Assembly: GCA_902787955.1 (NCBI GenBank)
Contig: CADAIJ010000007.1
Coordinates: forward strand, 62,001-126,000
Reading direction: 5' to 3'
Length of the DNA stretch: 64,000 bases
Source: an uncultured Erysipelotrichaceae bacterium
GTDB lineage: Bacteria; Bacillota_I; Bacilli_A; RFN20; CAG-826
Of the stretch, positions 2,773-53,941 are shown in pieces; positions within the stretch are counted from its first letter, which is position 1; the number at the start of each line of letters is the position of its first letter. Below the pieces are notes generated by a model. The model was not told the origin of the DNA and made no database searches. It saw only the letters and a list, made by a program, of their open reading frames with translations. Made by a program: the position numbers and the translations under genes.

Positions 2773-2775
2773 GAC

Positions 2776-3426
2776 TTATTTACCCTCCAATAAGGCGTTA
2801 ATTTCTTGAATAAGCTTTTCCGCGCCGATTGTGCCATCGAAGGTATAAAGTAAACCTTCTTTAGCATAATAGTCTAAGATAGGAGCGGTATCCTTATTGT
2901 AGATATCAAGTCTTGTATTCAAGGCATCGATATTGTCGTCTTTTCTTTGATATAATTCGCCACCACAATTATCGCAGACACCTTCAACTTTAGGTTTACG
3001 GTTAACGATATGATATGGTGCACCACAAGTTTTACATACTCTACGTCCGCTGATTCTTTCAACAAGAAGATCTTTTGGAGCGTCGATATTTAAGACCGCA
3101 GTGATTGGACGATTTATTTCTTCGGTAAGTTTCTTTAAGGCTTCCGCTTGAACTAAGGTGCGTGGGAATCCATCAAGGATATATCCGTTTGCACAATCAT
3201 CCATGGAAAGTCTTTCTTTGACTAAACCAATAGTGACATCGTCTGGTACTAAATGACCATCGTTGATATATTGGCTTGCAATCTTACCGAGAGGAGTTTG
3301 ATTTTTAATAGCTTCTCTAAACATATCACCAGTAGAGATATGTGGGAGATTATGCTCTGCTATAATGAGCTTAGCTTGAGTTCCTTTGCCAGCGCCTGGA
3401 GGCCCCATTAATACGATATTTTTCAT
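2776..3426 (-). CDS. adk: Adenylate kinase, zinc-binding long form
   Basis: Converts AMP plus ATP to two ADP. The P-loop GPPGAGKGTQ is at residues 8-17, LDGFPRT follows at about 84-90, and the LID domain has Cys131, Cys134, Cys151 and Cys154, the structural zinc site common in Gram-positive adenylate kinases. Length 216 is normal. The gene sits ten bases after secY and before map, so its supply is tied to the ribosomal operon. Nothing unusual was seen. Confidence 0.98.
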   Translation of the reverse strand: MKNIVLMGPPGAGKGTQAKLIIAEHNLPHISTGDMFREAIKNQTPLGKIASQYINDGHLVPDDVTIGLVKERLSMDDCANGYILDGFPRTLVQAEALKKLTEEINRPITAVLNIDAPKDLLVERISGRRVCKTCGAPYHIVNRKPKVEGVCDNCGGELYQRKDDNIDALNTRLDIYNKDTAPILDYYAKEGLLYTFDGTIGAEKLIQEINALLEGK

Positions 3427-3436
3427 AATAATTTAA

Positions 3437-4789
3437 TTACTCCCTTCCAGCCGTAGCTTGGACTTCATCGAAGGTCTTACCAGCAAGTAAGCCATCGATT
3501 TGATTCATAATTTCAAGTGAGACACCAACGGCGATGATTAAGCCAGTACCACCGAGCGCTAAGGAATGGTTATTTCCAAATATTCCAGAAAGAGTTAAGA
3601 CGACTGGAAGCGCAGCGATAAAGGCAAGAGCAATCGCACCGATACAGGTGACTCTATTAACAACTTTACGAACGTATCTTTCGGTTTCATTACCTGGTCT
3701 AATACCTGGGATATAGGAACCGTTTTTACGGAAGTTGTCGGCTAAAGTTTCTGGAGCGATCTGTAAGGATGAATAGAAGAACGTAAATAGGACAATGAGG
3801 GTTAAATAGATTATTAAGCCCCATGGGAATGAGAAGTTTTCACTCATTGGGAACATCTCGCTATAAGAGAAGATCTTTAACCAAGTTGCTTGGGCGGCAT
3901 CAGCGGAGATAAATCCGGCAATAACGCTTGGAACCATCATAATGGAAGAAGCGAAGATGACTGGAATAACCCCGGCAGAGTTAAGCTTAATTGGTAAGAA
4001 TGATGCTTTCGCCATCGATTGGTTTTGACCTGATTTACCAGAATGTTGAACTGGGATTTTTCTTTTCGCTAATTCAATAAAGACAACAAACGCTAAGATG
4101 AGGATGAAGGCTAAGATATATAAAGCGAATTGGAATGAACCTTTAACAAGTTCAGGCATTTCTTTATAGTTTGTGCCAACCCACATATTGAAGGCGCCTG
4201 TAATTTGAATTGGAAGAGAACGGACAATACCGGCAAAGATGATGACGGAAATACCATTACCAAGACCTTTTTCTGTAATCTGGTCACCGAGCCACATAAC
4301 AAGCATAGAACCTGCTAAGATGATGGTGATGATATAGACATAGGTCCAGAAATTAAGATCCATGTTAATAGTGATATATTGGCTATTTTCCATGGTCTTG
4401 ATGATACCATAGGCTTGAACCGCGCCTAACATAAGAGTTAAGTATCTAGTGGCCATTTCGGTTTTCTTGCGACCGTATTGACCTTGTTTCGATAATTCGG
4501 TTAAAGCTGGTAAAACATCTTTTTGTAAGAGCTGAATGATAATCTGCGCTGTAATGTATGGAGATACACCTAACGCAAAGATGGAGAAGTTTTGTAAGGC
4601 TCCACCGCCTAATAAATCCATTAAACTAAGAGCGTTACCACCATTTAAGGCATTAGTAAGTTCTGAGCTTGGGGAAACACCAGGAACAGTAATCGCCGCA
4701 CCAATACGAACGACAAGAAGAATCATTAACGTAAAGAAAATACGGTTAACGATTTCTTTGTTTTTGAAGATTGAGGCGATTTTTCTCAT
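3437..4789 (-). CDS. secY: Sec translocon subunit SecY
   Basis: Central channel of the Sec protein-export machine in the cytoplasmic membrane. The 450-residue protein has the ten hydrophobic segments expected of the family. Diagnostic stretches include GVSPYITAQIIIQLLQ (TM2), GLGNGISVIIFAGIV (TM4), KRKIPVQHSG and LADNFRKNGSYIPGIRPG (the large cytoplasmic loop that binds SecA and the ribosome). It starts two bases after the rplO stop, in the usual rplO-secY-adk order. Confidence 0.98.
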   Translation of the reverse strand: MRKIASIFKNKEIVNRIFFTLMILLVVRIGAAITVPGVSPSSELTNALNGGNALSLMDLLGGGALQNFSIFALGVSPYITAQIIIQLLQKDVLPALTELSKQGQYGRKKTEMATRYLTLMLGAVQAYGIIKTMENSQYITINMDLNFWTYVYIITIILAGSMLVMWLGDQITEKGLGNGISVIIFAGIVRSLPIQITGAFNMWVGTNYKEMPELVKGSFQFALYILAFILILAFVVFIELAKRKIPVQHSGKSGQNQSMAKASFLPIKLNSAGVIPVIFASSIMMVPSVIAGFISADAAQATWLKIFSYSEMFPMSENFSFPWGLIIYLTLIVLFTFFYSSLQIAPETLADNFRKNGSYIPGIRPGNETERYVRKVVNRVTCIGAIALAFIAALPVVLTLSGIFGNNHSLALGGTGLIIAVGVSLEIMNQIDGLLAGKTFDEVQATAGRE

Positions 4790-4791
4790 CG

Positions 4792-5232
4792 TTAGATTAC
4801 CTCGGCTACACCGCCTAATTTAGCAATTGCTTCACTAGCGGATTTAGAGAATTTATGAGCTTTAACGGTTAATTTCTTAGTTAATTCACCATTACCAAGA
4901 ATTTTAACACCATCGAGTTCTTTTGTAACTAAACCACATTCAACAAGTAAAGTTGGAGTAACAACAGTACCATCTTCAAAGCGGTTTAAGCTAGAGATAT
5001 TAACAACTGCGTATTCTTTACGGCCACCATTATAGAAGCCGAATTTTGGTAAACGTCTGAATAATGGGTTTTGACCACCTTCGAAGCCTGGACGGACACC
5101 GCCACCGCTACGAGAGTTTTGGCCTTTGTTACCACTACCAGCGTTCTTACCGTTACCGGAGCCTAAGCCACGGCCTTTACGGTAAGTATTGGTTTTTGCA
5201 CCTTTAGCATATTCGAGTTCATGTAATTTCAT
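4792..5232 (-). CDS. rplO: 50S ribosomal protein L15
   Basis: Large-subunit protein uL15. The 146-residue sequence begins [20 protein letters not shown] and has the Gly/Arg-rich N-terminal extension [22 protein letters not shown] that threads into 23S rRNA, then a compact C-terminal domain. It follows rpsE directly with 19 intervening bases; the rpmD gene usually found here is absent. SecY starts two bases later. Confidence 0.97.
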
Positions 5233-5251
5233 ATATATTTACCCTCCTCGA

Positions 5252-5896
5252 TTATTCTTCGGCTTTAGCTCTTAAAGCTTTAACTTCAGAATAAGATTTT
5301 AAGCTGGATAAACCATTTTGGGTAGCGCGGATAATGTTAATTGGAGCGCGCGAACCATAAACCTTAGAAACAACGTTTTTAATACCAGCGAGTTCTAAGA
5401 TAGCACGAACTGGACCACCAGCAATAATACCGGTACCAGCTGGAGCTGGTTTTAAGAAGACTTTACAAGCACCATATTGTCCGATGACTTCATGAGCGAT
5501 TGTATTGCCTTTTTTAATAATGTTGAGTTCGAATGTATTTCTCTTAGCGGCTTCGAGAGCTTTTTTAATAGCATCTGGTACTTCTTGAGCTTTACCAGTT
5601 CCGAATCCGTATTTACCTTTTTTGTTACCGATAACAACTAAGGCGCTGAAACGCATTCTACGACCACCTTTAACAGTCTTAGCGATACGATTGATTTCGA
5701 CGACGACTTCTTCGTATTCTTTGACTTCTTCACGTGGACGTCTTGGACCACCTTTGCGGTCACCTTTGCGGTCGCCTCTTGGACGATCACCATGTGGACG
5801 ATCACCTTGTGGACGTGCTCTTCTTTCTTCTTTTGGAGAATCAGTTGGTGTAGATTCTGCTTTAACTTCTTGAGCTAATTCTTTTTCTTCTAACAT
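5252..5896 (-). CDS. rpsE: 30S ribosomal protein S5 with charged N-terminal tail
   Basis: Small-subunit protein uS5, near the mRNA entry channel and important for decoding accuracy. The conserved part starts at about residue 63 ([28 protein letters not shown]) and continues through [14 protein letters not shown]-type and [12 protein letters not shown] segments to the end. The total of 214 residues is about 45-50 longer than most family members. The extra length is an N-terminal tail with repeated GDRP/GDRK units rich in Arg, Lys, Asp and Gly. The start at 5894-5896 has an AAAGGAGAATTAAAT site upstream and no better downstream ATG, so the tail looks real. Confidence 0.96.
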
Positions 5897-5913
5897 ATTT
5901 AATTCTCCTTTAA

Positions 5914-6270
5914 TTAGAACTTGAGTCCGCCTTCACGGGCAGCATCGGCTAAAGCTTGGACACGGCCGTGATAGAGGTAACCACCACGATCGAAGACAAC
6001 TTTTTCAATGCCTTTAGCCTTACAGACTTTAGCAATTTCTTCGCCAACTTTCTTAGCAGCTTCAATGTTACTGCCGTTTTCAAGTTTTAAACCTAAAGAG
6101 GAAGCGGAAGCTAAGGTAAGACCTTTAACATCGTCGATAACTTGAACTTCGATGTGTTTATTTGAGCGGAAGACAACAAGACGTGGAGCTTCACTTGTAC
6201 CGCTGACTTTAGCTCTAACACGAGCATGTCTTCTTTCGCGGACTTCATTGCGTGATACTTTTTTAATCAT
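5914..6270 (-). CDS. rplR: 50S ribosomal protein L18
   Basis: Large-subunit protein uL18, which binds 5S rRNA with L5 and L25. The 118 residues start [21 protein letters not shown] and include [18 protein letters not shown] and [28 protein letters not shown], both family hallmarks. Length is normal. It lies between rplF and rpsE with 17-18-base spacers, each containing a ribosome binding site. Confidence 0.98.
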
Positions 6271-6288
6271 ATCTAATCATCCTCCTAA

Positions 6289-6828
6289 TTATTTACCAGC
6301 ACGTTTGCCTTCTTTGCGGATAATGTGTTCACCTTTGTACATGACACCTTTACCATTATATGGTTCTGGTTCTCTTGTAGCTCTGATGAGCGCCGCAGTT
6401 TGGCCAACAGCTTGTTTAGATAAACCTTCAACAACTACTTCAGTTGCACTTGGGCAAGAGATTTTAACAGTTGGTTCTGGTTTAATGACGATTTCGTGGG
6501 AATAGCCAACGTTCATAACGATATCGTTACCTCTCATAGCGGCACGATAACCGATACCAACGATAACAAGTTCTTTCTTGAAACCATTTGTGACACCTTC
6601 AATAGCATCCGCTAAGTTTGCTCTTGTTGTGCCATGGAGTTGCTTGGTGTGTTTTTCTTCGTTAACACGTGTGCATTTAACGGAAGAACCTTCGATAGCA
6701 ACTTTAATAACTTCTGGAATTCTAACTGTAAGGGTTCCTTTTGGACCAGTGACGGACATAACGCCGTTTTCTTCTTTTAAAGTAACACCAGCAGGAACAT
6801 TGATAACTTTTAAACCAATACGTGACAT
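6289..6828 (-). CDS. rplF: 50S ribosomal protein L6
   Basis: Large-subunit protein uL6 near the factor-binding site. The 179 residues start MSRIGLKVINVPAGV and end with EPEPYNGKGVMYKGEHIIRKEGKRAGK, both conserved. Two tandem L6 folds are expected from the length. It starts only six bases after the rpsH stop codon, so translation is probably coupled. Confidence 0.98.
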   Translation of the reverse strand: MSRIGLKVINVPAGVTLKEENGVMSVTGPKGTLTVRIPEVIKVAIEGSSVKCTRVNEEKHTKQLHGTTRANLADAIEGVTNGFKKELVIVGIGYRAAMRGNDIVMNVGYSHEIVIKPEPTVKISCPSATEVVVEGLSKQAVGQTAALIRATREPEPYNGKGVMYKGEHIIRKEGKRAGK

Positions 6829-6834
6829 AAATGA

Positions 6835-7227
6835 TTACCAAACGTAAGCGAGAACTTCACCACCGACATTGAGTGAACGAGCGGTTTTGTCACTTACGAC
6901 TCCTTTACTAGTAGAAATGATAGCGATACCTAAGCCACCTAAGACACGTGGAAGCTTGTTAGCTTGAACAGTGACACGGAGACCTGGTTTAGAAATTTTC
7001 TTTAAGCCAGAGATAACTCTTTGGCCATTTGCACCGTATTTTAAGGTTAAGGTTAAGGATTTCTTAACATCACCTTCAACTTTATAAGCGGAGATGAAAC
7101 CTTCTTCTAATAAGATTTTAGCGATTTCGACTTTCATCTTGCTATTTGGCATACTCACAGTCGCATAGCGAAGAGCGTTCGCATTGCGAATTCTGGTGAG
7201 CATATCTGCAATTGGATCTGTCATCAT
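6835..7227 (-). CDS. rpsH: 30S ribosomal protein S8
   Basis: Small-subunit protein uS8, a 16S rRNA binder and in E. coli the repressor of the spc operon. I choose the start at 7225-7227 ([16 protein letters not shown]): the AGGAGG site lies ten bases upstream and overlaps the rpsN stop. A longer in-frame ATG at 7251 would put this site inside the gene. The result is 130 residues, the family length. The C-terminus [20 protein letters not shown] is typical. The alternative start is the second ATG at 7224. Confidence 0.96.
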
Positions 7228-7244
7228 AATAACTCTTCCTCCTA

Positions 7245-7430
7245 TTACCAACTGGATTTCTTCATGCCTGGGATTTCACCTTTATAGGCGAGTTCTCTTA
7301 AGCAGACACGGCATAATTTGAATTTTGAATATACTGCGTGAGGACGACCACATCTTTCACAACGGGTGTATTCTCTAACTTTGAATTTTTTAGGTCTAGC
7401 ACATTTGACCTTCATTGATGTTTTTGCCAT
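7245..7430 (-). CDS. rpsN: 30S ribosomal protein S14, zinc form
   Basis: Small-subunit head protein uS14 of the short zinc-binding (type Z) class: 61 residues, [20 protein letters not shown] followed by the CERCGRP and CRVC cysteine pairs that bind zinc. This is the spc-operon copy typical of Firmicutes. It lies between rplE and rpsH. The rpsH ribosome binding site overlaps its stop codon. Confidence 0.98.
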
Positions 7431-7442
7431 TAGAGTGTCCTC

Positions 7443-8129
7443 CTATCTTTGGAATGGCATACCGAGTAAGTCGAGTAAGCCATACGCTTCTTCATCAGTA
7501 TTCGCGGTGGTAACGATTACGATATCCATACCGCGGATTTTAGAAACCTTATCATATTCGATTTCTGGGAAAATTAATTGTTCTTTAATACCTAAGGTGT
7601 AGTTACCATGACCATCGAAGGCACTCTTAGAGACACCACGGAAGTCACGAACACGTGGGAGAGCGATAGAAACGAGCTTATCATAGAACTCATACATACG
7701 GACACCACGGAGGGTAACTTTACAACCGATTGCTTGTCCTTCACGGACTTTGAAGGTAGCGATTGATTTCTTAGCTTTAGTAATAACTGGTTTTTGACCG
7801 GTGATTGTGGCTAATTCACTAACCGCATCTTCAAGCATCTTAGCGTTAACGATAGCTTCGCCAACACCGATGTTAAGAACGATCTTTTCTAAATGTGGAA
7901 CTTGCATAACGGAGGAGTAATGGAATTTTTCCATTAAAGCCTTCTTAACTTCAGTTTCATATCTATCAAGTAATCTAGTGGATTCAGATCTAACTTTATT
8001 ACCACTTGATTTCTTTGTCGCTTTTTTAGCTTTAGGAGCTTCAGTTTTAGCTTCTTCAGTAACTGGCTTCTCTTCGACTGGCTTAGCAGCTTTAGGAGCA
8101 GCTTTTTTAGTAGTTTTTGCTTCTGCCAT
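7443..8129 (-). CDS. rplE: 50S ribosomal protein L5 with Lys/Ala/Glu-rich N-terminal tail
   Basis: Large-subunit protein uL5, which binds 5S rRNA and contacts S13 and the P-site tRNA. The normal protein begins at about residue 50 ([21 protein letters not shown]) and runs through [31 protein letters not shown] and [23 protein letters not shown]. The 228 residues exceed the usual 179 because of a low-complexity Lys/Ala/Pro/Glu tail starting [14 protein letters not shown]. Nearly the same start is found on L22 in this cluster. The ribosome binding site AAGGAGGTCATT precedes the tail ATG, supporting this start. Confidence 0.95.
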
Positions 8130-8139
8130 AATGACCTCC

Positions 8140-8451
8140 TTAATCTAATTTAGAACCGCTCTTCTTAGCGACTCTAACTTTCTTACCGTTTTTATCAACG
8201 GAGTAGCCAACACGAGTGGCCTTTTTAGTTTTTGGATCGACAACAGCAACGTTACTGGCATCGATTGGGACGTAAATCTCATTGATGCTACCTTCTGGGT
8301 TAGCTTGAGTTGGTTTACGATGTTTTTTGTGAACGTTAATGCCTTCGACAACAACTTTGTTGACCTTTGGATAGACCGCTTGGACAACACCAGTTTTTCC
8401 TTTGTCTTTACCAGCGATAACGATTACTTTATCACCTTTTAAAATCTTCAT
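8140..8451 (-). CDS. rplX: 50S ribosomal protein L24
   Basis: Large-subunit assembly-initiator protein uL24 near the exit tunnel. The 103 residues start [21 protein letters not shown], the KOW motif, and include [21 protein letters not shown]. The length is standard. It lies between rplN and rplE in the conserved order, ten bases before rplE. Confidence 0.98.
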
Positions 8452-8468
8452 CTTTACGTTCCCTCCTA

Positions 8469-8843
8469 TTAAAGAACTTCAGTTGCAAGGGAGACGATCT
8501 TCATAAATCCTTCTCCTTTGTCACGGAGTTCACGGGCGACAGGACCGAAGACACGAGTACCGATTGGAGCTCCTTCATTGTCGATAAGAACGATAGCGTT
8601 ATCATCGAAGGCAATTTGGGAACCATCTGGGCGGTTGATCGCGTGTTTGGTTCTTACGATGACACCTTTAACGATGTCGGATTTTTTAACTTTACCATTT
8701 GGGACAGCTTCTTTAACGGCACAGGTAACGATGTCACCAATACCAGCAGATTTACGGAAGCTACCACCCTTGATGTTAAAGATACGAACGGAGCGGGCAC
8801 CAGAGTTATCAGCGACCACAAGATTAGTTTCTCTTTGAACCAT
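8469..8843 (-). CDS. rplN: 50S ribosomal protein L14
   Basis: Large-subunit protein uL14, which forms intersubunit bridges and is a docking site for RsfS. The 124-residue sequence contains [20 protein letters not shown] and [19 protein letters not shown], both diagnostic. It starts six bases after the rpsQ stop. Its AAAGGAG ribosome binding site is encoded within the last codons of rpsQ. Confidence 0.98.
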
Positions 8844-8849
8844 AATCTA

Positions 8850-9176
8850 TTATTCTCCTTTCGCTTCAGAAGCTTCTTCTTCTAAGAGTTCGGCTTCTTC
8901 TTTGACTGCTTCTTTAATATCCATAAGAGCTTTCTTATCGATAGAGACGAGTCTCCATCTCTTAGTAGCGCTAAGTGGACGGCAGGCCATGATGGTGACG
9001 GTATCACCAACGTTGGCAGCGTTTAATTCATCGTGAGCAGTATATTTGGATGAATATTTAACACGTTTTTGATATTTGGCATGTCTTTTGTGAGTTTCGA
9101 CTTCAACGATAATAGTCTTATCATTTTTGTTAGAAACGACGACGCCTTGAAGAGATGTTCTACGATTTCTTTCCAT
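8850..9176 (-). CDS. rpsQ: 30S ribosomal protein S17 with acidic C-terminal tail
   Basis: Small-subunit protein uS17, an early 16S rRNA binder. The core is recognisable from [21 protein letters not shown] through [17 protein letters not shown]. At 108 residues it is about 20 longer than usual; the extra part is an acidic C-terminal tail (residues about 85-108) ending EASEAKGE. The last codons contain the rplN ribosome binding site. Confidence 0.97.
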
Positions 9177-9189
9177 TGTCTAATCCTCC

Positions 9190-9387
9190 TTATTTAATGC
9201 CTAATTCTCTTTCGCGTTGAACCATATAGGCTCTAGCGATATCTTTTCTTACTCTTCTAACTTCTTCACCGTGTTCGAGTTGACCAACGGCTTTTTTACG
9301 ACGGAGATTGAAGAGTTCTTCTTTGAGGAGGTAAATCTTTTCATTTAACTCTTCATTGCTTAATTCACGTAATTCAGAGACTTTCAT
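9190..9387 (-). CDS. rpmC: 50S ribosomal protein L29
   Basis: Large-subunit protein uL29 at the tunnel exit. The 65 residues form the expected two-helix hairpin: MKVSELRELSNEELNEKI, LKEELFNLRRKKAVGQLE, and VRRVRKDIARAYMVQRERE. It starts two bases after rplP, with its Shine-Dalgarno sequence (AAAGGAGAT) inside the end of rplP. Confidence 0.98.
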   Translation of the reverse strand: MKVSELRELSNEELNEKIYLLKEELFNLRRKKAVGQLEHGEEVRRVRKDIARAYMVQRERELGIK

Positions 9388-9389
9388 GA

Positions 9390-9803
9390 TTATTTATCTC
9401 CTTTCTTGATGACTCTGCAGCGGCATGGAAGTTTGTAGCCAGCTAAGCGGAGAGCTTCTCTAGCGGTTTCTTCTGGGACCCCTGCCATTTCAAACATCAC
9501 TCTATTAGTGCGGACAACTGCTACCCATTCTTCTGGAGAACCTTTACCAGAACCCATACGAACTTCAGCAGGTTTCTTAGTTTTTGCTAAGTGTGGGAAG
9601 ATTCTAATATAAACCTTTCCTTCTTTCTTGGTATAACGGGAGATGACGATACGAGCGGCCTCGATTTGTCTAGCGGTTATCCAAGCGCCGGTCACGGCTT
9701 GAAGACCATATTCACCAAAGGCAACTTCATTACCACCTTTGGATAAGCCTTCGTATTTGATACCGTGTGGACGACGATATTTAACTCTTTTTGGTTGTAA
9801 CAT
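9390..9803 (-). CDS. rplP: 50S ribosomal protein L16
   Basis: Large-subunit protein uL16, positioned near the A-site tRNA elbow and needed late in 50S assembly. The 137 residues start [14 protein letters not shown] and include [22 protein letters not shown]-type and [17 protein letters not shown] segments. The ATG overlaps the rpsC stop by one base (TAATG). Confidence 0.98.
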
Positions 9804-10471
9804 TATTTAGCGTCTCCTTTCTCGGCATCATCGAGGATTTCACCTTTACAGATCCAGACTTTAACGCCTAATCTTCCGTAAGGAGTGACAGCCTCTTTAT
9901 GAGCGTAATCGATATCAGAGCGGAGAGTGGTAAGAGGGACAATACCTTCTTTATAACCTTCGCTTCTAGCGATATCAGCGCCACCAAGACGACCAGATAC
10001 CATTGTACGGCATCCTTTAGCCCCGGCTTTTCTAACTTTTTGAATTGCTTTCTTTTGAGCAGTTCTGAAGGAAGCACGATTTTCAAGTTCAGTAGCAATC
10101 CATTGAGCGACTAAGTTGGCATCTAAATCAGGTTCTTTGACTTCGACGACATCTAAGCGGACAGTGCTACCTTTGAGCATCTTAGAGACTTCCTTTTTAA
10201 GGCGGTTAATATTAGCGCCTTCTTGACCGATGACGACACCTGGACGAGCAACGAAGAGTTGAATTGTAACTGCATAGCCGTCGTCAGCTTTACGTCTTTC
10301 GATTTCTAAGTGAGAGAGAAGAGCATCTTTGAGTTCTTTAGATAAATATTTACGAACTTTGATGTCTTCGTGGAGGAATTTTGCGTATTCTTGGTCATTT
10401 GCAAACCAACGATCATGCCAATTACGGTTGATACCAACACGCATACCTACTGGACTAACTTTTTGACCCAT
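9803..10471 (-). CDS. rpsC: 30S ribosomal protein S3
   Basis: Small-subunit protein uS3 at the mRNA entry tunnel with helicase-like function. The 222 residues start [24 protein letters not shown], contain the KH-type domain ([18 protein letters not shown]) and the C-terminal S3 domain ([24 protein letters not shown]). Length is normal. It overlaps rplP by one base. Confidence 0.98.
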
Positions 10472-10488
10472 ATTGTATTTTTTCCTCC

Positions 10489-10992
10489 TTATCTAGATTT
10501 GACCACAACTGTGATGTGGCATGTTCTTTTTACTAAGCCTGAAGCGGAACCTTTTGCTCTTGGAAGGTAACGTTTCATCTTTAAGCCATCGTTAGCATAG
10601 ATGGAATCAATGTAGAGAGATTCTTCATCCATACCGAAGTTATTGATTGCGTTCGCCGCAGCGGACTTAATAACTTTCATAACGATTGGGGAAGCAGCCT
10701 TATTGGTATTGTCGAGAATACCGAGGGCTTCGTTCACGCGTTTTCCTCTTACTAAATCAATAACGAGGCGCGCTTTACGTGGTGTGACACGCACGTTTTT
10801 CGCAGTAGCAGTTGCGGAAGTTACTTTTGGTTTAGCAGGAGCTTCCTTAACTTCTTCCTTCTTGCTAGCTTTCTTAGCGCGTGGCTTTTTAGCTTCTTTT
10901 ACTTCTTCAACAGGAGCTTCTTCAACTGGTTTTTCTTCTACGACTTTTTTAGCCTTAGGAGCAGCCTTTTTGGTTGTTTTTGTTTCTGCCAT
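10489..10992 (-). CDS. rplV: 50S ribosomal protein L22 with Lys/Ala/Glu-rich N-terminal tail
   Basis: Large-subunit protein uL22, whose loop lines the peptide exit tunnel. The normal protein begins at about residue 60 (TATAKNVRVTPRKARLVIDLVRGKRVNEAL) and ends with RAKGSASGLVKRTCHITVVV. The 167 residues are about 55 more than usual: the N-terminal tail ([22 protein letters not shown] onward, split here from a longer run) is rich in Lys, Ala, Glu and Pro and begins like the tail of L5. The ribosome binding site AGGAGGTTCAGAAAA is just upstream of the tail ATG. Confidence 0.95.
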   Translation of the reverse strand: MAETKTTKKAAPKAKKVVEEKPVEEAPVEEVKEAKKPRAKKASKKEEVKEAPAKPKVTSATATAKNVRVTPRKARLVIDLVRGKRVNEALGILDNTNKAASPIVMKVIKSAAANAINNFGMDEESLYIDSIYANDGLKMKRYLPRAKGSASGLVKRTCHITVVVKSR

Positions 10993-11006
10993 TTTTCTGA
11001 ACCTCC

Positions 11007-11300
11007 TTATTTCTTCTTGGCCGCAGCTTTATCTTCTGCGTTATTGCCATGGTGACCTTTGAATGTTCTTGTTGGAGCGAATTCACCTAATTTGTGACCG
11101 ACCATATCTTCAGTGACATAGACGGTGATGTGTTCGCGACCATTATAAACAGCGAAGGTGTGTTCGACGAATGAAGGGAAAATTGTCGAACGACGTGACC
11201 AGGTTTTGATAACTTCTTTACGGTTAGCGGCGTTTAAGGCTTCAACCTTTTTCATTAAAGATTCATCAACGAATGGTCCTTTTTTAATACTACGTGACAT
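11007..11300 (-). CDS. rpsS: 30S ribosomal protein S19
   Basis: Small-subunit head protein uS19. The 97-residue sequence starts [19 protein letters not shown] and includes [22 protein letters not shown] and [14 protein letters not shown], all conserved. A Lys/Ala-rich end ([12 protein letters not shown]) is normal for the family. It lies between rplB and rplV. Confidence 0.98.
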
Positions 11301-11318
11301 ATCTTATTTTCCTTTCAT

Positions 11319-12152
11319 TTATTTTTGATTACGTCTTCTAACGATTAATTTAGAAGAAGCTTTTTTGTTGCGTCTTGTCTTAACGCCAAGAGCACGTTTA
11401 CCCCAAGGGGTACGTGGGGCATCTCTACCAACTGGAGATTTACCTTCACCACCACCGTGTGGGTGATCATTAGGGTTCATAACAGAACCACGGACAGTTG
11501 GGCGAGTGCCTAACCATCTTGTTTTACCGGCTTTACCTTTGTTAACAAGGATGAAGTCCTCATTACCAACGATACCGATTGTCGCGCGGCAAGTAGCTAA
11601 GACTTTTCTAACTTCACCTGAGGCGAGACGGACAATGATGTATTTTCCTTCTTTACCTAAGATTTGCGCGCTTGTACCTGCGGCTCTACACATTTGGCCA
11701 CCCTTTCCTGGAGTGAGCTCAACGTTATGAACGAAGGTACCTTCTGGAATATTAGCAAGTGGTAATGCATTACCGACTTTAATATCGACATTTTCACCAG
11801 AGACGATCTTGTCTCCGACTTTTAAGCCTTGTGGGGCAATGATGTAACGCTTTTCACCATCAGCATAGCTGAGGAGAATGATATGAGCGTTGCGGTTTGG
11901 ATCATATTCGATCGCTTTGACGGTTGCGACGATTCCATCTTTGTTACGTTTGAAATCGACAATTCTATAACGACGTTTGTGACCACCACCGATGTGACGT
12001 GTTGTAATAACACCTTGGTTATTACGACCGCCAGTCTTGGTTAACTTAACTGTTAAACTTTTTTCAGGAGTGGATTTGGTAATTTCATCAAACGCCAATG
12101 TTGTCATATTACGACGTGATGGAGATGTCGGACTGTAAGTTTTAATTGACAT
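11319..12152 (-). CDS. rplB: 50S ribosomal protein L2
   Basis: Large-subunit protein uL2, needed for subunit joining and the peptidyl-transferase centre. The 277 residues start [19 protein letters not shown], contain [17 protein letters not shown] and the C-terminal block [18 protein letters not shown] with the conserved histidine. The length is standard. A 36-base gap separates it from rplW. Confidence 0.98.
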
Positions 12153-12188
12153 TTCTTTTTCTCCTATATTTGGCCTATCTTACAAGGC

Positions 12189-12533
12189 TTATTCTTTGAA
12201 GAGGTCGAGTGCTTCGCCTTCAGCGATAGTCACAACTGCTTTCTTGAAACCAGGAATTGTTCCTTTATAGCGGCCACCTCTTGTGGTGCTAGTTGAGCGG
12301 ACGTTAACGATGTTAACACCGATAACTTTGACTCCGAAGACATTTTCGAAGGCTTTTTTAACTTCCACTTTATTAGCGGTTTTGCTCACTTTAACTGTAA
12401 CTTTGTTTTCTTCTTGCATGAGCTTCATTGTCTTTTCAGTGAGCACTGGTTCAATGATAGTATCGAAATCATGCACAGTAGCTTTAGATAAGTTTTTGGT
12501 ATCTTTAGCTTCAGCTTTCTTTGTTCTAGCCAT
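12189..12533 (-). CDS. rplW: 50S ribosomal protein L23 with short N-terminal extension
   Basis: Large-subunit protein uL23 at the tunnel exit, docking site for trigger factor and SRP. The core starts at about residue 21 (HDFDTIIEPVLTEKTMKLMQ) and continues through KVEVKKAFENVFGVKVIGVNIV. The 114 residues include about 20 extra N-terminal residues (MARTKKAEAKDTKNLSKATV), lysine-rich like the tails on L5 and L22. The ATG overlaps the rplD stop by one base. Confidence 0.97.
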   Translation of the reverse strand: MARTKKAEAKDTKNLSKATVHDFDTIIEPVLTEKTMKLMQEENKVTVKVSKTANKVEVKKAFENVFGVKVIGVNIVNVRSTSTTRGGRYKGTIPGFKKAVVTIAEGEALDLFKE

Positions 12534-13171
12534 TAGAGTAATGCCTCCTCAACTAATTTAACGCTGTCTTTATCCATGACGACGTGATCGAAGTACATAA
12601 GATCATAGACAGAAACGTTTGTAACACTGGTAACGACAACGTTAGCAATGTTTTGAGCGGATAAGATGACTTTTTCATCAATATCTTTAAGAACAATGAG
12701 AGTCTTGCCTTCCACTTTGAGAGCCTTGAGCATATTGACAACGTTCTTGGTTTTGATTTCTTCGAACTTGAAGCTATCAACGAGAACTAAGCCTTTATTC
12801 TTAACGAGGACACTATAAGCAGATTTGAGAGCTAACTTATGTTCTTTTCTATTTTGGGCTAATTTGTGATTTTGGACGCCTGTTGGACCAAAGACGGTAC
12901 CACCACCGACCCAAATTGGTGAACGGGAGGAACCAGCGCGGGCTCTACCTGTACCTTTTTGTCTCCATGGTTTTTTACCACCACCGCTAACTTCATCACG
13001 TTTCTTTGTTTTAGCGGTATCTTGACGCATATTTGCTTGGTAGACAACTACAGCATCATGCATCACTTGTTTATTTTCTTCAATTCCGAAGACTTCGGCT
13101 TTGAGGGAAACGCTTGATAATTCTTCACCAGTAGCGGAATAGACTGGAAGTTTAATTGTTTTGGCTGCCAT
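12533..13171 (-). CDS. rplD: 50S ribosomal protein L4
   Basis: Large-subunit protein uL4; its loop lines the exit tunnel, and in E. coli it represses the S10 operon through the leader RNA. The 212 residues include MRQDTAKTKKRDEVSGGGKKP, WRQKGTGRARAGSSRSPIWVGGG and a normal C-terminal domain. It starts two bases after rplC. If the rpsJ leader described below is regulatory, L4 is the first candidate ligand by analogy. Confidence 0.98.
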   Translation of the reverse strand: MAAKTIKLPVYSATGEELSSVSLKAEVFGIEENKQVMHDAVVVYQANMRQDTAKTKKRDEVSGGGKKPWRQKGTGRARAGSSRSPIWVGGGTVFGPTGVQNHKLAQNRKEHKLALKSAYSVLVKNKGLVLVDSFKFEEIKTKNVVNMLKALKVEGKTLIVLKDIDEKVILSAQNIANVVVTSVTNVSVYDLMYFDHVVMDKDSVKLVEEALL

Positions 13172-13173
13172 AA

Positions 13174-13905
13174 CTATTCTCCTTTCGCTTCTTCAGCTTT
13201 TGGTTCTTCAACCTTAGCTTCTTCAACAACTGGTGTGAGATCAACGAGAGGTTTTACAACTTCTTTTTGACCGAGTTGAGTTTTCACTGCACTTCTAACA
13301 GTAACGAGTGATTTCTTAGCACCTGGGACAGAGCCTCTAACTAAGATGTAATTCTTTTCTGCATTAACTTCGACAACGAGTTGGTTGAGGATAGTAGCAG
13401 ACTTGTTACCATGGTGACCAGACATCTTCTTTCCTGGGATAACACGTGCGTTATTACGACCGTTGTTAGCGAAGGAACCTTGTCCTCTATGGTAACCAGA
13501 TCCGTGACCTTTTGGTCCAATTGCATGACCCCAGCGTTTAATGACGCCTGCATAGCCACGACCTTTTGAGACACCGATAACGTCAACAACGTCACCAGCT
13601 TTGAAGATATCAGCAGTAACGGAATCACCGACATTATAGTTAGCGAGTTCATCACCTTTGATTTCTTTTAAGACCTTAGTAGCTTTAACTCCGGCTTTAG
13701 CGAAGTGGCCTCTTTCAGCCTTATTGACTTTGGATTCTTTCTTTTCTTCAAATCCAACTTGGAGAGCGTGATAGCCATCTTTTTCGATTGTCTTAACTTG
13801 AGTAACAACGTTTGGTAAGACTTCGATAACGGTGACAGCATACATAGTTCCATCTTGAGCGAAGACTTCTGTCATGCCCATCTTACGACCGAGAATTTCT
13901 TTCAT
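13174..13905 (-). CDS. rplC: 50S ribosomal protein L3 with acidic C-terminal tail
   Basis: Large-subunit assembly-initiator protein uL3. The sequence begins MKEILGRKMGMTEVFAQDGTM and has GRGYAGVIKRWG and GHGSGYHRGQGSF, family hallmarks. The 243 residues exceed the usual 206-215; the extra is an acidic C-terminal tail (VVEEAKVEEPKAEEAKGE). The last codons contain the AAAGGAG ribosome binding site of rplD, two bases before that gene. Confidence 0.97.
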   Translation of the reverse strand: MKEILGRKMGMTEVFAQDGTMYAVTVIEVLPNVVTQVKTIEKDGYHALQVGFEEKKESKVNKAERGHFAKAGVKATKVLKEIKGDELANYNVGDSVTADIFKAGDVVDVIGVSKGRGYAGVIKRWGHAIGPKGHGSGYHRGQGSFANNGRNNARVIPGKKMSGHHGNKSATILNQLVVEVNAEKNYILVRGSVPGAKKSLVTVRSAVKTQLGQKEVVKPLVDLTPVVEEAKVEEPKAEEAKGE

Positions 13906-13919
13906 CGTTAATGCCCTCC

Positions 13920-14231
13920 TTATAATTTGATGTCGATATCAACACCGGAAGGTAAGTCGAGCTTACGTAAGGTTTCGATTGTCTCCTTAGTAGGATTTGT
14001 GATATCGATCAATCTCTTGTGTGTTCTAATTTCGAATTGTTCACGAGAATCTTTGTACTTATGGACAGCACGTAAGATTGTGTAAACTTGTTTTTCCGTC
14101 GGGAGCGGAATAGGACCAACAACACCAGCCCCGGTTTTCTTAGCAGCTAAGACAATCTTTTCGACAGATGTATCGAGAAGCTTGTGATCATAAGCTTGCA
14201 AACGAACCCGAATGGATGTAATTTTTGCCAT
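13920..14231 (-). CDS. rpsJ: 30S ribosomal protein S10
   Basis: Small-subunit head protein uS10, also NusE in transcription antitermination. The 103 residues include [30 protein letters not shown] and [13 protein letters not shown]. The AAGGAGAAAAAAATTC sequence before the ATG provides the ribosome binding site. As the first gene of the cluster it follows the promoter and leader at 14232-14393. Confidence 0.98.
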
Positions 14232-48891: not shown

Positions 48892-50610
48892 TTAATCAGT
48901 TACAAGGACATCATCACAATTATCATCGAGAAGCTGACCAAGTACTTTATTATAGATTTCTGAATCAATTTCAAAACGTTTAAATCTAGCGTGATAAATC
49001 AAACGGAATGCTGCAAATTTCTTACATATCTTCCACTCTTTTTCTAAATCCTTACCTTCGAAATAGACTGGGAAGAAGGCATCATAGAACTTCTTCATAG
49101 TGGCTCTATCAAAGTGGAATATTTGCATACAGCGTTCATCATTTACTGCATGAGCGAACAAATACATTGAACCAATATCATAATATGGTGAACCAATAGC
49201 AAGATCCGCTAAGTCAATCATAATATTATCGCCTTTATCAGTCATAACCGCGTTTCCTGTATGGAAGTCACCATGAATTAATGTTTTAGCGTCTTTATAT
49301 TCAAGGATTAAGGCTTTTAGTTTCTCGACAATATCTTTGTCTAACTTAGGCGCTAAAATGTTCACAAAACCTAATTCGATTTCACTTTGATCTGGGAATA
49401 TTCCTGGAAGAGGAGTGATTTTATGGAATTCACGAGTCATTAAAGCAAAGCGTCTTGCGATTTCTGGAATCTTTTCAGGTTCATTAGCAACTGCTCTAGA
49501 GAATGAAATTTTATTAGCAACTCTTTCAAAAGAGAAACCAATACGATCACCGAAGTAACAGATTTCACCACTAATAGGAGTGTTAACGCCAGTAAGCAAA
49601 GCTTCTTTAGCCATAATCTTCTCTTGTTCAATCATATTGGCTGGAACTTTGTTAGAGAAGAGTTTAATCATAATATCTTCATCTTTTTCATCAAAATAGG
49701 TCGTAGAAGTATAGCCATCTCCGGAAATATACATTCCTTCGAGAGTGCCATGACCATATTTCTTAACAAGTGGAATTAATGATGAGATACCATTATCTTC
49801 AAGTTTTGAAGCAATATTTGGACTTACTAAACGTAAGAACATACGATAACCGTTTTGGTGTAAACGAATTAAAGTTCTCATCGCACCAAAAGATAAACCA
49901 GTTAATTTATCACAGTTAATAATGTTTTCTTTACCTTTATCTAAAGCGTTTTCGATTGTAAGAGAATCTTCTTTTGAAACATAACCTTCAAGTAAGATTT
50001 CTCGATCAGTTTTAGTTAATTTAAATTCGACATAACGGTCAAAGACATCGTGTACATCTTGTTCAAATTCTTTAAAAGCGTAATATTCTTTTAATTCACT
50101 TAAAGCGTCCACTAAAGAAAGATAATACCAGGCGTGATTTCTTGGATCATTATCATGAAATCTTTCCCAAATCTTATTACCAATTTCAAGATAGTCTTGT
50201 TTGATAGCTCTAATGTTAGAAAGTTTATCGCCTAAGGCCACCATTTTCGCTTCTTTAGAGGCATTCTTAAGATGGTCTAAGGTCGCTTGTTTTTTATCTT
50301 TCCAAGAGACCATATTGCCTTCTAAATCAATTTCATAAGAAGTCTCAGATTTTACAATTGAAGCGACTTCTGCGCCAAATTCTTTTTCTATATCTTCGAT
50401 TTTAATAGGAGTATCTTCGGCAACATCATGAAGAACTGCCGCGGCTAAAAGAGTTTGATCATTGCTCATTGTGCTAACAATACTTAATGCTTCTAGAGGA
50501 TGAACAATATAAGGAAATCCTTTGCCTCTTCTTTCCGTATTTGCGTGAGCTTTTGTCGCGAAGATAATCGCTTTATCTAATAAAGTTGAATCAATATATT
50601 TTTCTGCCAT
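48892..50610 (-). CDS. HD hydrolase-STAS-like-APH kinase fusion
   Basis: A 572-residue protein with three apparent domains. (1) HD-type ppGpp hydrolase (about 5-185): FPYIVHP (His37), LHDVAEDT (His61-Asp62, Glu65-Asp66) and LGDKLSNIRAI (Asp128) match the RelA/SpoT HD pattern. (2) Residues about 197-285 resemble a STAS domain: INCDKLTGLSFGAMRTLIRL aligns with the LSSAGLRIL loop of the STAS protein at 53586, with Ser240 in the phosphorylation-loop position. (3) Aminoglycoside/choline-kinase-like domain (about 290-540) with Lys316, HGDFHTGN (446-453) and MIDLADLAIGSPYYD (Asp466). Its start is one base after the synthetase gene. No similar architecture is known to me. Confidence 0.85.
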   Translation of the reverse strand: MAEKYIDSTLLDKAIIFATKAHANTERRGKGFPYIVHPLEALSIVSTMSNDQTLLAAAVLHDVAEDTPIKIEDIEKEFGAEVASIVKSETSYEIDLEGNMVSWKDKKQATLDHLKNASKEAKMVALGDKLSNIRAIKQDYLEIGNKIWERFHDNDPRNHAWYYLSLVDALSELKEYYAFKEFEQDVHDVFDRYVEFKLTKTDREILLEGYVSKEDSLTIENALDKGKENIINCDKLTGLSFGAMRTLIRLHQNGYRMFLRLVSPNIASKLEDNGISSLIPLVKKYGHGTLEGMYISGDGYTSTTYFDEKDEDIMIKLFSNKVPANMIEQEKIMAKEALLTGVNTPISGEICYFGDRIGFSFERVANKISFSRAVANEPEKIPEIARRFALMTREFHKITPLPGIFPDQSEIELGFVNILAPKLDKDIVEKLKALILEYKDAKTLIHGDFHTGNAVMTDKGDNIMIDLADLAIGSPYYDIGSMYLFAHAVNDERCMQIFHFDRATMKKFYDAFFPVYFEGKDLEKEWKICKKFAAFRLIYHARFKRFEIDSEIYNKVLGQLLDDNCDDVLVTD

Positions 50611-50611
50611 T

Positions 50612-51691
50612 TTATTCTTTTAACACTCCTGATTTTCTCGCAATTTCACAAATGCGTTTTGCTTGTCTAGCGTTGCTCTTTCTCTCACCATAAATAAGGC
50701 CTAAGAATAAACCAACACCAACTTCACCACCACCAGCTTTAAGAATATAAGTAATGAGTAAATAATATAAAGCTGTTGTCGAAGTCATAATATCGATATC
50801 AGTATCACTGAAGGCTTTAACCGCTAAAGTATAAGCGTCGTCAGCGTATGATTTAAATATCTCATCTAATTGGCCTAAAGTTAAAATATTCATCTTCTTT
50901 AAGGCAATTAAGTATGGAGTGGTTGAAACCATTGTAATTTCCATATTATTAATCTTCGCAATACGTTCACTAAGAATAAGGAAGTGACCCATGCCAAGAT
51001 ATTCTCTAAAGGAATCAGCGTTGAGTTCAACATCATTAAGATTACCTGATTCAACAAGACTCTTAACGACACGACGATATTCAGTTAAGTTAAATCTTAA
51101 TTCAGAGAATTGCTTATCCGCTAATTCAAGGAGACCAGCTAAACTTGATAATGTTCTAAGTGATTCACGAGGAATTTCAACATCGCTTTTATAACCAGTA
51201 TCATGGTAGATAGAAGCCCAAACATGTTGAAGCGCGGTCCTCATTTGAAGTTCAAATCTAAGTTCATTAACTAAAGGATGTTTTTCATCGTTATATAATG
51301 ACTTTGGAATACGGCAAATATAGTGAAGAGACATATAACCAAAACGGTCTACATCGTGGAGTTTTCTTTTATCAACTGTATTTTCCCAGTCAATTTCAAA
51401 AACATCACTTATAATGCCTGCGAATTTATCAACTTCATCAGTATAAAAGGTAACAACACGAGCACCGACTAAATCTGTTAAGTCTGATAAAGAGGCGTAT
51501 TTATACCCTTTTCTTTCGAGTTTTCCTTCTAAAGAATCACGTTTTTTAATACGAGATTCAACAGAATTGATAAACATGTCATGTTCTCTAACAATTTTAT
51601 TTAATGCTTTATCAATGATTTCTTTTTGAATTTTAAGTGATTCATAAGCAGCATCATATTCTTCGAGAATCATTTGAGCTTTAAAGTCCAT
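50612..51691 (-). CDS. RelA/SpoT-type (p)ppGpp synthetase
   Basis: Probable alarmone synthetase (359 residues) without the HD and TGS-ACT parts of a long RSH protein. The synthetase domain covers about 20-175: ASLSDLTDLVGARVVTFY with Asp73, RFGYMSLHYIC (Gly118-Tyr119, His123) and ELRFELQMRTALQHVWASIYHD with Glu147 and Arg151. These are the conserved catalytic and GDP-binding residues. The rest is helical with a hydrophobic C-terminal segment. The next gene supplies an HD hydrolase, so the two activities are split over adjacent proteins. Confidence 0.88.
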   Translation of the reverse strand: MDFKAQMILEEYDAAYESLKIQKEIIDKALNKIVREHDMFINSVESRIKKRDSLEGKLERKGYKYASLSDLTDLVGARVVTFYTDEVDKFAGIISDVFEIDWENTVDKRKLHDVDRFGYMSLHYICRIPKSLYNDEKHPLVNELRFELQMRTALQHVWASIYHDTGYKSDVEIPRESLRTLSSLAGLLELADKQFSELRFNLTEYRRVVKSLVESGNLNDVELNADSFREYLGMGHFLILSERIAKINNMEITMVSTTPYLIALKKMNILTLGQLDEIFKSYADDAYTLAVKAFSDTDIDIMTSTTALYYLLITYILKAGGGEVGVGLFLGLIYGERKSNARQAKRICEIARKSGVLKE

Positions 51692-51706: not shown

Positions 51707-53584
51707 TTATAAATTCTTTTTAATTGTTAAAATGTTTTGATTGTTTTTGTATTCGTAAGAAATTTCGTCCATTGATTGTTTAACAATAAAGATACCTAAA
51801 CCACCGATTTGTCTTTCGCTAGCGTCTAAAGTGATATCAGGATTTTCGAGTTCAAGAGGGTTAAATGGTCTTCCATTATCCACGAATGAAATTGAAACGG
51901 AAACAGGTTCTTCTTTAAGTTCGATACGAACAATGGCTTTACCAACTTCAGGGTTATAGGCGAATTTAACAATGTTTGAGAATAATTCATCAATCGCAAC
52001 ATTGATTTGATAAATAGCTTTTTTGTTATTAGTAACTTTGCTTAAGAAATCATTAACAAAATCGGTAACAACATCGAGATTTTCCGATAAGGAGTCCACT
52101 GAAATCTCTTTTTTAAGGCTTGGTGTACCTTTGAAAAGAACACTGATAATAGTGATATCATCAAATTGATCTTCACCATTAACAAACTTATTAATTTCAG
52201 CTTGAACGACTTTAGTTAATTCTTCAGGATTTAAGTCAGGATTTGCGTTAAGAATATTTAGTAATCTTTCTTCACCGAATATTTCTTTGTTTGCGTTAGT
52301 GGCTTCAGTAACCCCATCAGTGTAGAAGAATATTTGATCTCCAGGAACAAGTTTAAAGGATGTGGCTTTAAATTTAGTTTCTTCCAAACCACCTAAAACA
52401 AATCCGCGAGGAAGTTTAACATATTCGTATTTGTTATTTCTTTTAATAAGGATTGGATTATGACCTGCATTTGCGACGATTAATTCACCAGTTAAAATAT
52501 TTAATCTAGCGGTAACCGCGGTAACAAATAATCCACTTTGATTGAATTGGTAAAGTTCTTGGTTAGCAAGTTCGAGGGCTTTTTCTAAATAAATACCTGT
52601 TTTTGTAACGGATTTAAGTAAAGTTTTTGTTCCCATCATCTCTAAAGCAGCAGGAACACCTTTGCCACTTACATCACCAATAGTGAAAATGAGTTCATGA
52701 GGATTACACATATAGAAGTCATAGAAATCTCCACCGACTTCTTTAGCAGGATCCATAATCGCATATAATTCATATTCATTAGTGTTAGGGAATTCACGAG
52801 GAAGAATACCAACTTGAATATTAGATGCAATACCAAGTTCAGCAGCAATCTTTTCTTTATCTCTTGTAAAATCACTATCTTTCTTAAGAAGTTTTTCAGT
52901 ACGAATCGTAAGTTGAAGAGAAATAAAGAACATTAAGGAGAGCATGACCATTCTAGACATGTAATAATAGACAACTATCTTAATATATCTATTCTCGCCA
53001 TATTGCATAAGGCTATTAAGGTATTCAATTCTCCCGTTAACATCTGAAGTCTCAATTTTCATTGATTCAGCAACACCAGTGTTATCCATACCGCCCATTA
53101 AATATGGGTCCCATTCACCAAATAACATCGCAAAATACATACAAAGTAGCATCATGATTGATACTGAAATGAAGATTGCCAAGCTAGTTCTCGGACTATA
53201 ATAGTGGCACGCTAAAACGATAATAACTGCCCAGCCTAAGATCGAATGCTTAGGAATGATTACATTAACAACGGAAACAACAAAGATGAATAAAGAGAGT
53301 AAGTAATACTTAAACCAAGGTTGTTTAATGTATTTTGTTTTATAGAAGAATAACGGGGTTAATAGGAGAACCATTGAGATAGGAATCGCAATGTTAAGGA
53401 TGGTCATTATTGATTGCATCCCAAGTTCAAAAACACCAGTTAAATAGAAAACCCATATAAGTAGCATTAAGAAAGAGCCAAAAGCACAACCAAATGCTAA
53501 TGCTTTATTTGCGGAATATTCATTCTCTTGTAATGTTTTAGAATCAATAGCGCGCTTTTTAAAAACAGCAAACGGATTATTCAT
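51707..53584 (-). CDS. Membrane SpoIIE-type phosphatase fused to an RsbW-like ATPase
   Basis: A 625-residue membrane signal protein. Hydrophobic helices lie in residues 30-230. A PP2C/SpoIIE phosphatase domain follows (about 250-485) with metal Asp residues in GGDFYDF (286), IGDVSGKG (304), NAGHNP, YTDGVTEA (423) and FDDIT (475-476). The C-terminus (about 490-625) is an RsbW/SpoIIAB-like GHKL ATPase: IDELFSNIVKFAY (N box), VDNGRPFNP and QIGGLGIFIVKQ. It starts one base after the STAS gene, which is its natural substrate: the ATPase would phosphorylate and the phosphatase dephosphorylate STAS proteins in a partner switch. Confidence 0.93.
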   Translation of the reverse strand: MNNPFAVFKKRAIDSKTLQENEYSANKALAFGCAFGSFLMLLIWVFYLTGVFELGMQSIMTILNIAIPISMVLLLTPLFFYKTKYIKQPWFKYYLLSLFIFVVSVVNVIIPKHSILGWAVIIVLACHYYSPRTSLAIFISVSIMMLLCMYFAMLFGEWDPYLMGGMDNTGVAESMKIETSDVNGRIEYLNSLMQYGENRYIKIVVYYYMSRMVMLSLMFFISLQLTIRTEKLLKKDSDFTRDKEKIAAELGIASNIQVGILPREFPNTNEYELYAIMDPAKEVGGDFYDFYMCNPHELIFTIGDVSGKGVPAALEMMGTKTLLKSVTKTGIYLEKALELANQELYQFNQSGLFVTAVTARLNILTGELIVANAGHNPILIKRNNKYEYVKLPRGFVLGGLEETKFKATSFKLVPGDQIFFYTDGVTEATNANKEIFGEERLLNILNANPDLNPEELTKVVQAEINKFVNGEDQFDDITIISVLFKGTPSLKKEISVDSLSENLDVVTDFVNDFLSKVTNNKKAIYQINVAIDELFSNIVKFAYNPEVGKAIVRIELKEEPVSVSISFVDNGRPFNPLELENPDITLDASERQIGGLGIFIVKQSMDEISYEYKNNQNILTIKKNL

Positions 53585-53585: not shown

Positions 53586-53888
53586 TTAGGCCTCTTCGAT
53601 AGTTAAAATGCTACTGAAACCAGTCATGTCGAAGGTTTCCATAATTAAGTCGTTAACATTTCGAAGAATCATCTTGCCTTGTTTTGACATTGTTTTATGG
53701 GTGATTAAAAGGATTCTTAAACCCGCTGAGGAAAGATAATCAAGATCCTTAAAATCAAAATATAAAGTTTTAACTCCCTCAAGTGCACCATTAAGTGCGG
53801 CATCAAGTTCAGGAGCGGTAGATGTATCAAGCCTACCTCCTAAAGAAATAGTTAAAACGTCGTTTTCTCTTTTTAAATCAATTTTCAT
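53586..53888 (-). CDS. STAS anti-sigma-factor antagonist (RsbV/SpoIIAA-like)
   Basis: Small partner-switching protein. From ATG 53886-53888 it has 100 residues: MKIDLKRENDVLTISLGGRLD, then the loop YLSSAGLRILL with Ser53/Ser54, where phosphorylation switches partners in RsbV/SpoIIAA proteins. GTG at 53900 is possible, but GGAG lies just upstream of the ATG. It is the first gene after the promoter at 53913-53941 and one base before the phosphatase/ATPase gene. No sigma factor is visible in the window, so its target may be another protein of this operon. Confidence 0.92.
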   Translation of the reverse strand: MKIDLKRENDVLTISLGGRLDTSTAPELDAALNGALEGVKTLYFDFKDLDYLSSAGLRILLITHKTMSKQGKMILRNVNDLIMETFDMTGFSSILTIEEA

Positions 53889-53912: not shown

Positions 53913-53941
53913 ATTATCTATTAAAGATAAAGATTTTTCAA
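53913..53941 (-). promoter_or_regulatory. Promoter of the partner-switching/ppGpp operon
   Basis: On the minus strand TTGAAA (53936-53941), a 17-base spacer and GATAAT (53913-53918). It gives an 18-base leader with a GGAG site before the STAS ATG. It looks like a housekeeping promoter, not an alternative-sigma one. Confidence 0.7.

Follow-up and report, generated by a model that had tools for sequence, protein, structure and literature searches.

On the minus strand of the window, by which we mean the whole stretch of 64,000 nucleotides analysed here, four genes follow one another with gaps of 1, 15 and 1 bases: a STAS gene, a SpoIIE-HATPase fusion gene, a small alarmone synthetase gene and a gene for an HD protein. 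Listed in the direction of reading, the features of this run are:

53913..53941, minus strand: candidate operon promoter TTGAAA-17-GATAAT, a consensus match and no more
53586..53888, minus strand: STAS protein encoded on its own, 100 aa when counted from the likely ATG (Pfam STAS; TIGR00377 above cut-off)
51707..53584, minus strand: 625-aa fusion of a SpoIIE-type PP2C phosphatase with an RsbW-like HATPase (Pfam SpoIIE 162 bits, HATPase_c_2 70 bits)
50612..51691, minus strand: long small alarmone synthetase, 359 aa (Pfam RelA_SpoT, catalytic residues, AlphaFold2 model)
50615..51046, minus strand: modelled C-terminal piece of the synthetase, residues 216-359, predicted alone
48892..50610, minus strand: hydrolase fusion, 572 aa, with HD_4, a STAS-like middle and an APH-type kinase (Pfam HD_4 and APH, hhalign)

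Judged by gene content, the STAS protein, the HATPase kinase and the PP2C phosphatase together make up a partner-switching module. The STAS frame is listed with a GTG start at 53900 and has an LSSAG motif where the phosphoacceptor normally lies, and a hydropathy scan finds a hydrophobic N-terminal part in the SpoIIE-HATPase protein, which is likely to sit in the membrane. The candidate promoter is weak, the scan of the region having returned 33 sites against 36.7 expected in shuffles. Behind the HD protein lie two genes that we take to encode sugar-nucleotide enzymes. Elsewhere, the genome also holds a long Rel-like frame of ordinary type (738 codons). The GC content of the window is ~41% over its first 14 kb (positions 1-14000) and ~33% afterwards, and this step at ~14 kb possibly marks a change of origin.

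A sequence-only reading of this DNA had placed a synthetase at 50612-51691; the coordinates are exact, and the strand, which it did not give, is minus. The frame begins with ATG behind a GGAGG-type site. RelA_SpoT is the sole Pfam match (57.6 bits against a cut-off of 27, residues 46-170), and HD, TGS and ACT find no match up to E 1, as that reading had claimed. A scan of genome contigs returned 512 relatives, of which the best 80 were kept; these are nearly all ~350-370 aa long, and 73 of them align with the window protein over its whole length, giving an alignment of 74 rows. Asp73, Tyr119, His123 and Glu147 never vary in this alignment and Arg151 almost never does; all five lie at the positions where the earlier reading had put them. 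By domain and catalytic residues, the protein is an intact RelA/SpoT-type small alarmone synthetase, whose product would be a (p)ppGpp-type alarmone. The full-length AlphaFold2 model, built on the 74-row alignment, has a mean pLDDT of 91.6, and the protein is laid out as a SYNTH domain (46-170, Pfam), a long helix (175-215) and an extra C-terminal helical domain (~217-359). Comparison of the model with the PDB matches the catalytic fold and the long helix, to about residue 215, to RelP, RelQ and Rel. On the NCBIfam YjbM equivalog (RelQ) the synthetase scores 57.1 bits, below the cut-off of 320.

How unusual is the C-terminal region? The earlier reading had counted about 185 extra helical residues. 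The helical tail is real, with 189 residues after position 170, mostly helical in the model, but the helix 175-215 is also present in RelQ and RelP, so that the extra part amounts to ~143 residues (217-359); phmmer alignments to RelQ/RelP reach query residues 179-227. Predicted alone, the C-terminal piece reaches a pLDDT of 93.4 and a pTM of 0.88. Pfam yields nothing for it up to E 1, and Foldseek finds nothing at E<=0.001 in either the PDB (best E 1.7) or the BFVD viral models (best E 1.2); VIA-align of the Foldseek matches gives a best Z of 4.2, which is not meaningful. This part is thus a domain predicted with confidence, plausibly folded and without a recognised relative, and no disordered tail. 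Two candidate identities for it were rejected: a TPR domain, for want of any Pfam match up to E 1, and a YXXY neutralising motif, which is absent here and in 53 of the 74 family members and present in 21. The Pfam comparison of the 74 members covered the 48 families matched by any member, 25 of them among the matches listed. In a comparison with CapRel, which is marked by a pseudo-zinc-finger C-terminal domain, the full synthetase model aligns with 7ztb across 253-259 columns with an rmsd of 15 A, and CapRel is not among the matches listed for the C-terminal domain alone.

A single base separates the synthetase stop codon from the start of the gene for the HD protein. The HD_4 part of this protein contains the HD, ED and DKLSN-type motifs by which small alarmone hydrolases are recognised, and its nearest PDB proteins are small stand-alone HD proteins (7qoe at E 2e-25, 7qoc and 4yf1). 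The middle domain aligns with STAS (hhalign 93%, E 3e-7, in one comparison), with a serine at the phosphoacceptor place (LSFGAMR); the same place holds a threonine in the related locus L048 and a serine in L049. Proteins of 384 aa that combine STAS and APH are homologues of the STAS-plus-APH half of the HD protein, and one of them is encoded in the window's own genome. The HD motifs and this homology thus make the HD protein an alarmone hydrolase joined to a piece of a partner-switching module. It exceeds the Pfam cut-off for APH and stays below that of TIGR02172 (161 against 228.2 bits), and a search of viral contigs found no relatives of it. The 384-aa STAS-APH protein of this genome belongs to a second partner-switching module (G000:C2:128199-131481; L130, L132, L123), arranged as STAS, STAS-APH and SpoIIE-HATPase without a synthetase or HD gene. 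Two further arrangements were seen among the loci: a MatE transporter fused to an RsbW-like HATPase (L116:254-2035, Pfam), and, in L124, a HATPase match within a 591-aa frame, with STAS and a further, presumably response-regulator-like gene behind it.

Long synthetases of ~350-375 aa form a broad family whose members occur in Firmicutes as well as on plasmids and viral contigs. The copy on a Bacteroides phage-plasmid has the same C-terminal domain (hhalign 97.5%, E 5e-12), and on 51 viral-contig loci the C-terminal profile, at a threshold of E 0.001, matches 38 of 53 synthetase frames, while no PP2C, HATPase, STAS or HD_4 match occurs on any of these loci. The phage family phrog_9640 (365 positions), annotated as of unknown function, matches residues 7-285 of the window protein at E 7e-58. 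A search of the phylum with the C-terminal profile gave matches in 7 of 392 genomes; six are synthetases, and the seventh, a 275 aa frame in G189 with E 5e-4, seems to be a helical protein picked up by chance. In the window's genus the family is patchy, occurring in 2 of 24 genomes, its own included. A group of ~350 aa synthetases in another family of the window's class shows no switch genes on the short stretches seen; its two usual neighbours we take to be hprK and lgt. Solitary long synthetases were also observed on the Bacteroides phage-plasmid (L034:7989-9062), a 3.5 kb Klebsiella plasmid (L037:436-1572), a mycobacterial prophage (L211:2474-3493) and a filamentous Vibrio phage (L212:2917-3927); as phage and plasmid cargo, these are possibly defence genes. 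Among Firmicutes, cloRel and fpRel are small alarmone synthetase groups of Atkinson 2011 (PMC3153485).

In a 92-row tree, the window synthetase and those of loci L040-L045, L048 and L049 form one clade of nine with an SH-aLRT support of 98, the tree coming from a quick search with SH-aLRT and no bootstrap as its measure. A STAS gene lies near the synthetase in all nine members, an RsbW-like HATPase gene in eight and a SpoIIE PP2C gene in five. Directly downstream of the synthetase there is an HD gene in eight of the nine; L043 is without an adjacent hydrolase. The clade shows five gene orders:

STAS, SpoIIE-HATPase, synthetase, HD: window and L040
STAS, synthetase, HD: L041
Synthetase, HD-APH, tyrosine phosphatase, HATPase, STAS: L042, L044 and L045, with NMT1 and SpoIIE genes in between in L042 (the tyrosine phosphatase typed in L042, and taken in L044 and L045 from a gene of equal length and place)
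GGDEF, STAS, synthetase, HATPase: L043
SpoIIE-HATPase upstream; synthetase, HD-APH, STAS: L048 and L049

Between the STAS gene and the synthetase gene downstream of it there are 3 bases in L043 and 15 in L041. The STAS part is missing from four of the eight clade HD proteins, those of L042, L044, L045 (by length) and L041 (HD alone). The records carry the labels Bacillota, Mycoplasmatota, Bacteroidota and Elusimicrobiota; since the eight related ones are all MAGs, in which wrong binning is possible, these phylum labels need care. With window/L040, L044/L045 and L048/L049 being near-copies, the nine members amount to about five independent lineages. The sister pair from Olsenella (L046, L047) is without the switch and HD genes of the clade. 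At synthetase residues 160 and 162 the clade mostly reads WASIYHD and the other members WAEIEHD (S160 in 7/7 and Y162 in 6/7 of the clade rows counted, E at both places in 65/65 others). In L043 a GGDEF (diguanylate cyclase) gene stands next to the STAS and synthetase genes (5535-6608), and two second messengers may share one switch there. In the Equicola records, genes for a PAP2-domain protein and a tyrosine phosphatase flank the synthetase-hydrolase pair (L042:5064-6935 and 9496-10296; L044:5222-6970).

Is the proximity of switch genes a common feature of long synthetases? Neighbourhoods were counted on the best 80 of the 512 relatives, which comprise eight clade loci (the window apart) and 72 others, 53 of the latter with 2 kb or more on both sides. 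Any switch gene was found in 8/8 clade loci against 18/72 others, the remaining 54 lacking all three switch domains; a stand-alone STAS protein of ~100 aa occurs anywhere on the locus in 4 of the 72, and a switch gene is directly adjacent in eight. Outside the clade, 139 genes adjoin a synthetase gene and 388 lie at least three genes away from one; switch genes number 8 among the former and 16 among the latter (p 0.48). Adjacency thus lies at background, and a tie of switch genes to the whole family was rejected. Within the clade they are 4 of 16 adjacent against 9 of 67 distant genes of the same loci (p 0.26); since adjacent clade genes are not richer in switch genes, the link in the clade is one of nearness, not of adjacency. 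A directly adjacent HD gene was found in 7/8 clade loci against 0/72 others. In two clostridial records outside the clade, a SpoIIE gene overlaps the synthetase start (L077:3808-6461, L084:5328-8038).

These counts bear out one half of an earlier suggestion, the link of the synthetase to STAS and HD genes, which is there in the neighbourhood, but not the other, that the tail exists to bind a STAS or HD partner. The same domain occurs in a family whose loci are mostly without partner-switching genes, the kind of finding that the sequence-only reading had itself named as refuting its idea, and the C-terminal region, taken before as unusual, is ordinary for its family. A domain special to this locus was likewise rejected, as it is also found in chromosomal relatives and in plasmid and viral copies. 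Moreover, the ratio of C-terminal to N-terminal identity is 0.71-0.72 within the clade against 0.64-0.72 for other pairs at equal divergence, and clade-specific residues occupy 10 of 144 C-terminal and 18 of 215 N-terminal positions, with no concentration in the C-terminal domain. A ratio similar to, or slightly higher than, that found for the other pairs, together with the spread of clade residues, argues against a domain that has turned into a switch-specific docking part. The domain is shared across the family, and we interpret it as a family-wide regulatory or oligomerisation domain.

We give an even chance to the explanation that, in this clade, synthetase and hydrolase are the output of a partner-switching module, with the C-terminal domain being a family trait and not a STAS or HD docking part. 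Phosphorylation, partner exchange and control of the alarmone by the switch are read from domain make-up, gene order and the precedents among diguanylate cyclases. The RsbW-like HATPase would phosphorylate the free STAS protein, and the membrane SpoIIE phosphatase would dephosphorylate it; in the window, the STAS domain of the hydrolase would be a second substrate of both. The state of the STAS protein would then determine which partner is bound, and this would shift the balance between making and destroying the alarmone. The hydrolase, having a STAS domain built into it, is the surest physical hook. STAS might also act on the synthetase directly, as STAS alone among the switch genes is near the synthetase in every clade member. 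The HATPase, for its part, could have another target. The window's genome contains 6 SpoIIE, 6 STAS and 7 HATPase_c_2 matches (one of the latter below cut-off) against two Sigma70_r2 frames, one of 429 codons and one of 200 codons read as ECF-like. Thus, most switches cannot each target a sigma factor of their own, and a partner-switching output other than a sigma factor is plausible.

Among the alternatives, we consider it unlikely that the C-terminal domain and the long helix are a docking site for unphosphorylated STAS, which would switch the synthetase directly, as SiaC does with SiaD. The thought draws on STAS being the sole switch gene in all nine clade members, on its place 3 and 15 bases ahead of the synthetase in L043 and L041, and on SiaC, a structural relative of STAS that binds the stalk of SiaD (PMC8457831); it has to contend with the same domain on viral and most chromosomal loci that have no STAS, and with clade-specific conservation that does not gather in it. 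Equally improbable to us is that the synthetase-hydrolase pair is a toxin-antitoxin or antiphage pair like FaRel-ATfaRel, in a family of phage and plasmid cargo whose C-terminal domain is a brake or phage sensor as in CapRel, with the switch genes regulating it loosely. Solitary members on the Bacteroides phage-plasmid, Klebsiella plasmid, Vibrio phage, mycobacterial prophages and viral contigs, the existence of phrog_9640 and the patchy presence in the window's genus would all fit such a pair, as would what PMC11782079 describes: FaRel in an operon with its hydrolase antitoxin ATfaRel, also AT2faRel, and autoinhibition of CapRel by its C-terminal domain. However, in phmmer searches RelP/RelQ and their kin (E 4e-14 to 3e-10) are far nearer to the window protein than CapRel (E 0.25), no FaRel2-named chain is among the matches listed up to E 1, the YXXY motif is missing from the window's C-terminal domain and from most members, and viral-contig members have no HD_4 gene nearby.

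Still less probable is a chance or lineage-specific neighbourhood of ordinary, unrelated genes in genomes rich in partner-switching genes. The six SpoIIE matches of this genome and the background level of adjacency in the wider family speak for it, but it sits poorly with switch genes at every clade locus and at a quarter of the others while gene order is shuffled between lineages, with the adjacent HD gene confined to the clade among the loci counted, and with gaps of 1-15 bases in the window. Synthetase and hydrolase as output of the switch stay our preferred reading, and the interesting part of the locus is the operon, the tail being ordinary for its family. Tentatively, and leaning slightly towards doubt, we propose more broadly that a partner-switching phosphorylation module directly sets the alarmone level through a synthetase-hydrolase pair, that it has spread among gut bacteria labelled as several phyla, and that it is a counterpart of the STAS-controlled diguanylate cyclases in which the hydrolase has its own STAS domain. 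The usual view of stringent-response enzymes is that ribosomes, metabolites or transcription drive them. If the proposal is true, a membrane phosphatase and a STAS switch would add a phosphorylation-based signal input to alarmone control, and partner switching would have a non-sigma output in a genome with six SpoIIE genes and two sigma-factor matches. The phage-borne family phrog_9640, with its confidently predicted C-terminal domain, is a clear target for structure work.

Compared with known systems, RelQ (YjbM) and RelP (YwaC) have the catalytic domain and long helix of the window protein without the extra domain. Long solitary synthetases of the phrog_9640 type resemble it in length and domain order, but the viral-contig members examined have no switch or HD_4 genes nearby. 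FaRel is alike in that the synthetase adjoins a hydrolase, and CapRel resembles the window's family in its extra C-terminal domain and phage links (PMC11782079); unlike both, the window protein is much nearer to RelP/RelQ in sequence, lacks YXXY in its C-terminal domain and is accompanied by switch genes. The DsRel-type Tde-SAS of Treponema denticola is likewise a small synthetase with a C-terminal helical part, ~180 residues long and serving as a brake, and its hydrolase, Tde-SAH, is a protein apart (PMC10434055). The C-terminal part of Tde-SAS is a TPR, whereas the window's domain has no Pfam match, and the distant gene numbers TDE1711 and TDE1690 indicate no adjacent pair of the kind seen here. 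On partner switching of alarmone synthetases, we found no paper in the open-licence literature, which is no proof of absence. The closest parallel lies in STAS-type partners that control the diguanylate cyclases SiaD, HsbD and BgrR: according to PMC8457831, SiaABCD of Pseudomonas aeruginosa, HsbA-HsbD and BgrV-BgrR share with the window a phosphatase, a kinase and a STAS-type partner. In those systems they control an enzyme that produces a second-messenger nucleotide, as they would in the window. The output there is a diguanylate cyclase, while in the window it would be an alarmone synthetase together with a hydrolase fused to STAS and an APH kinase.
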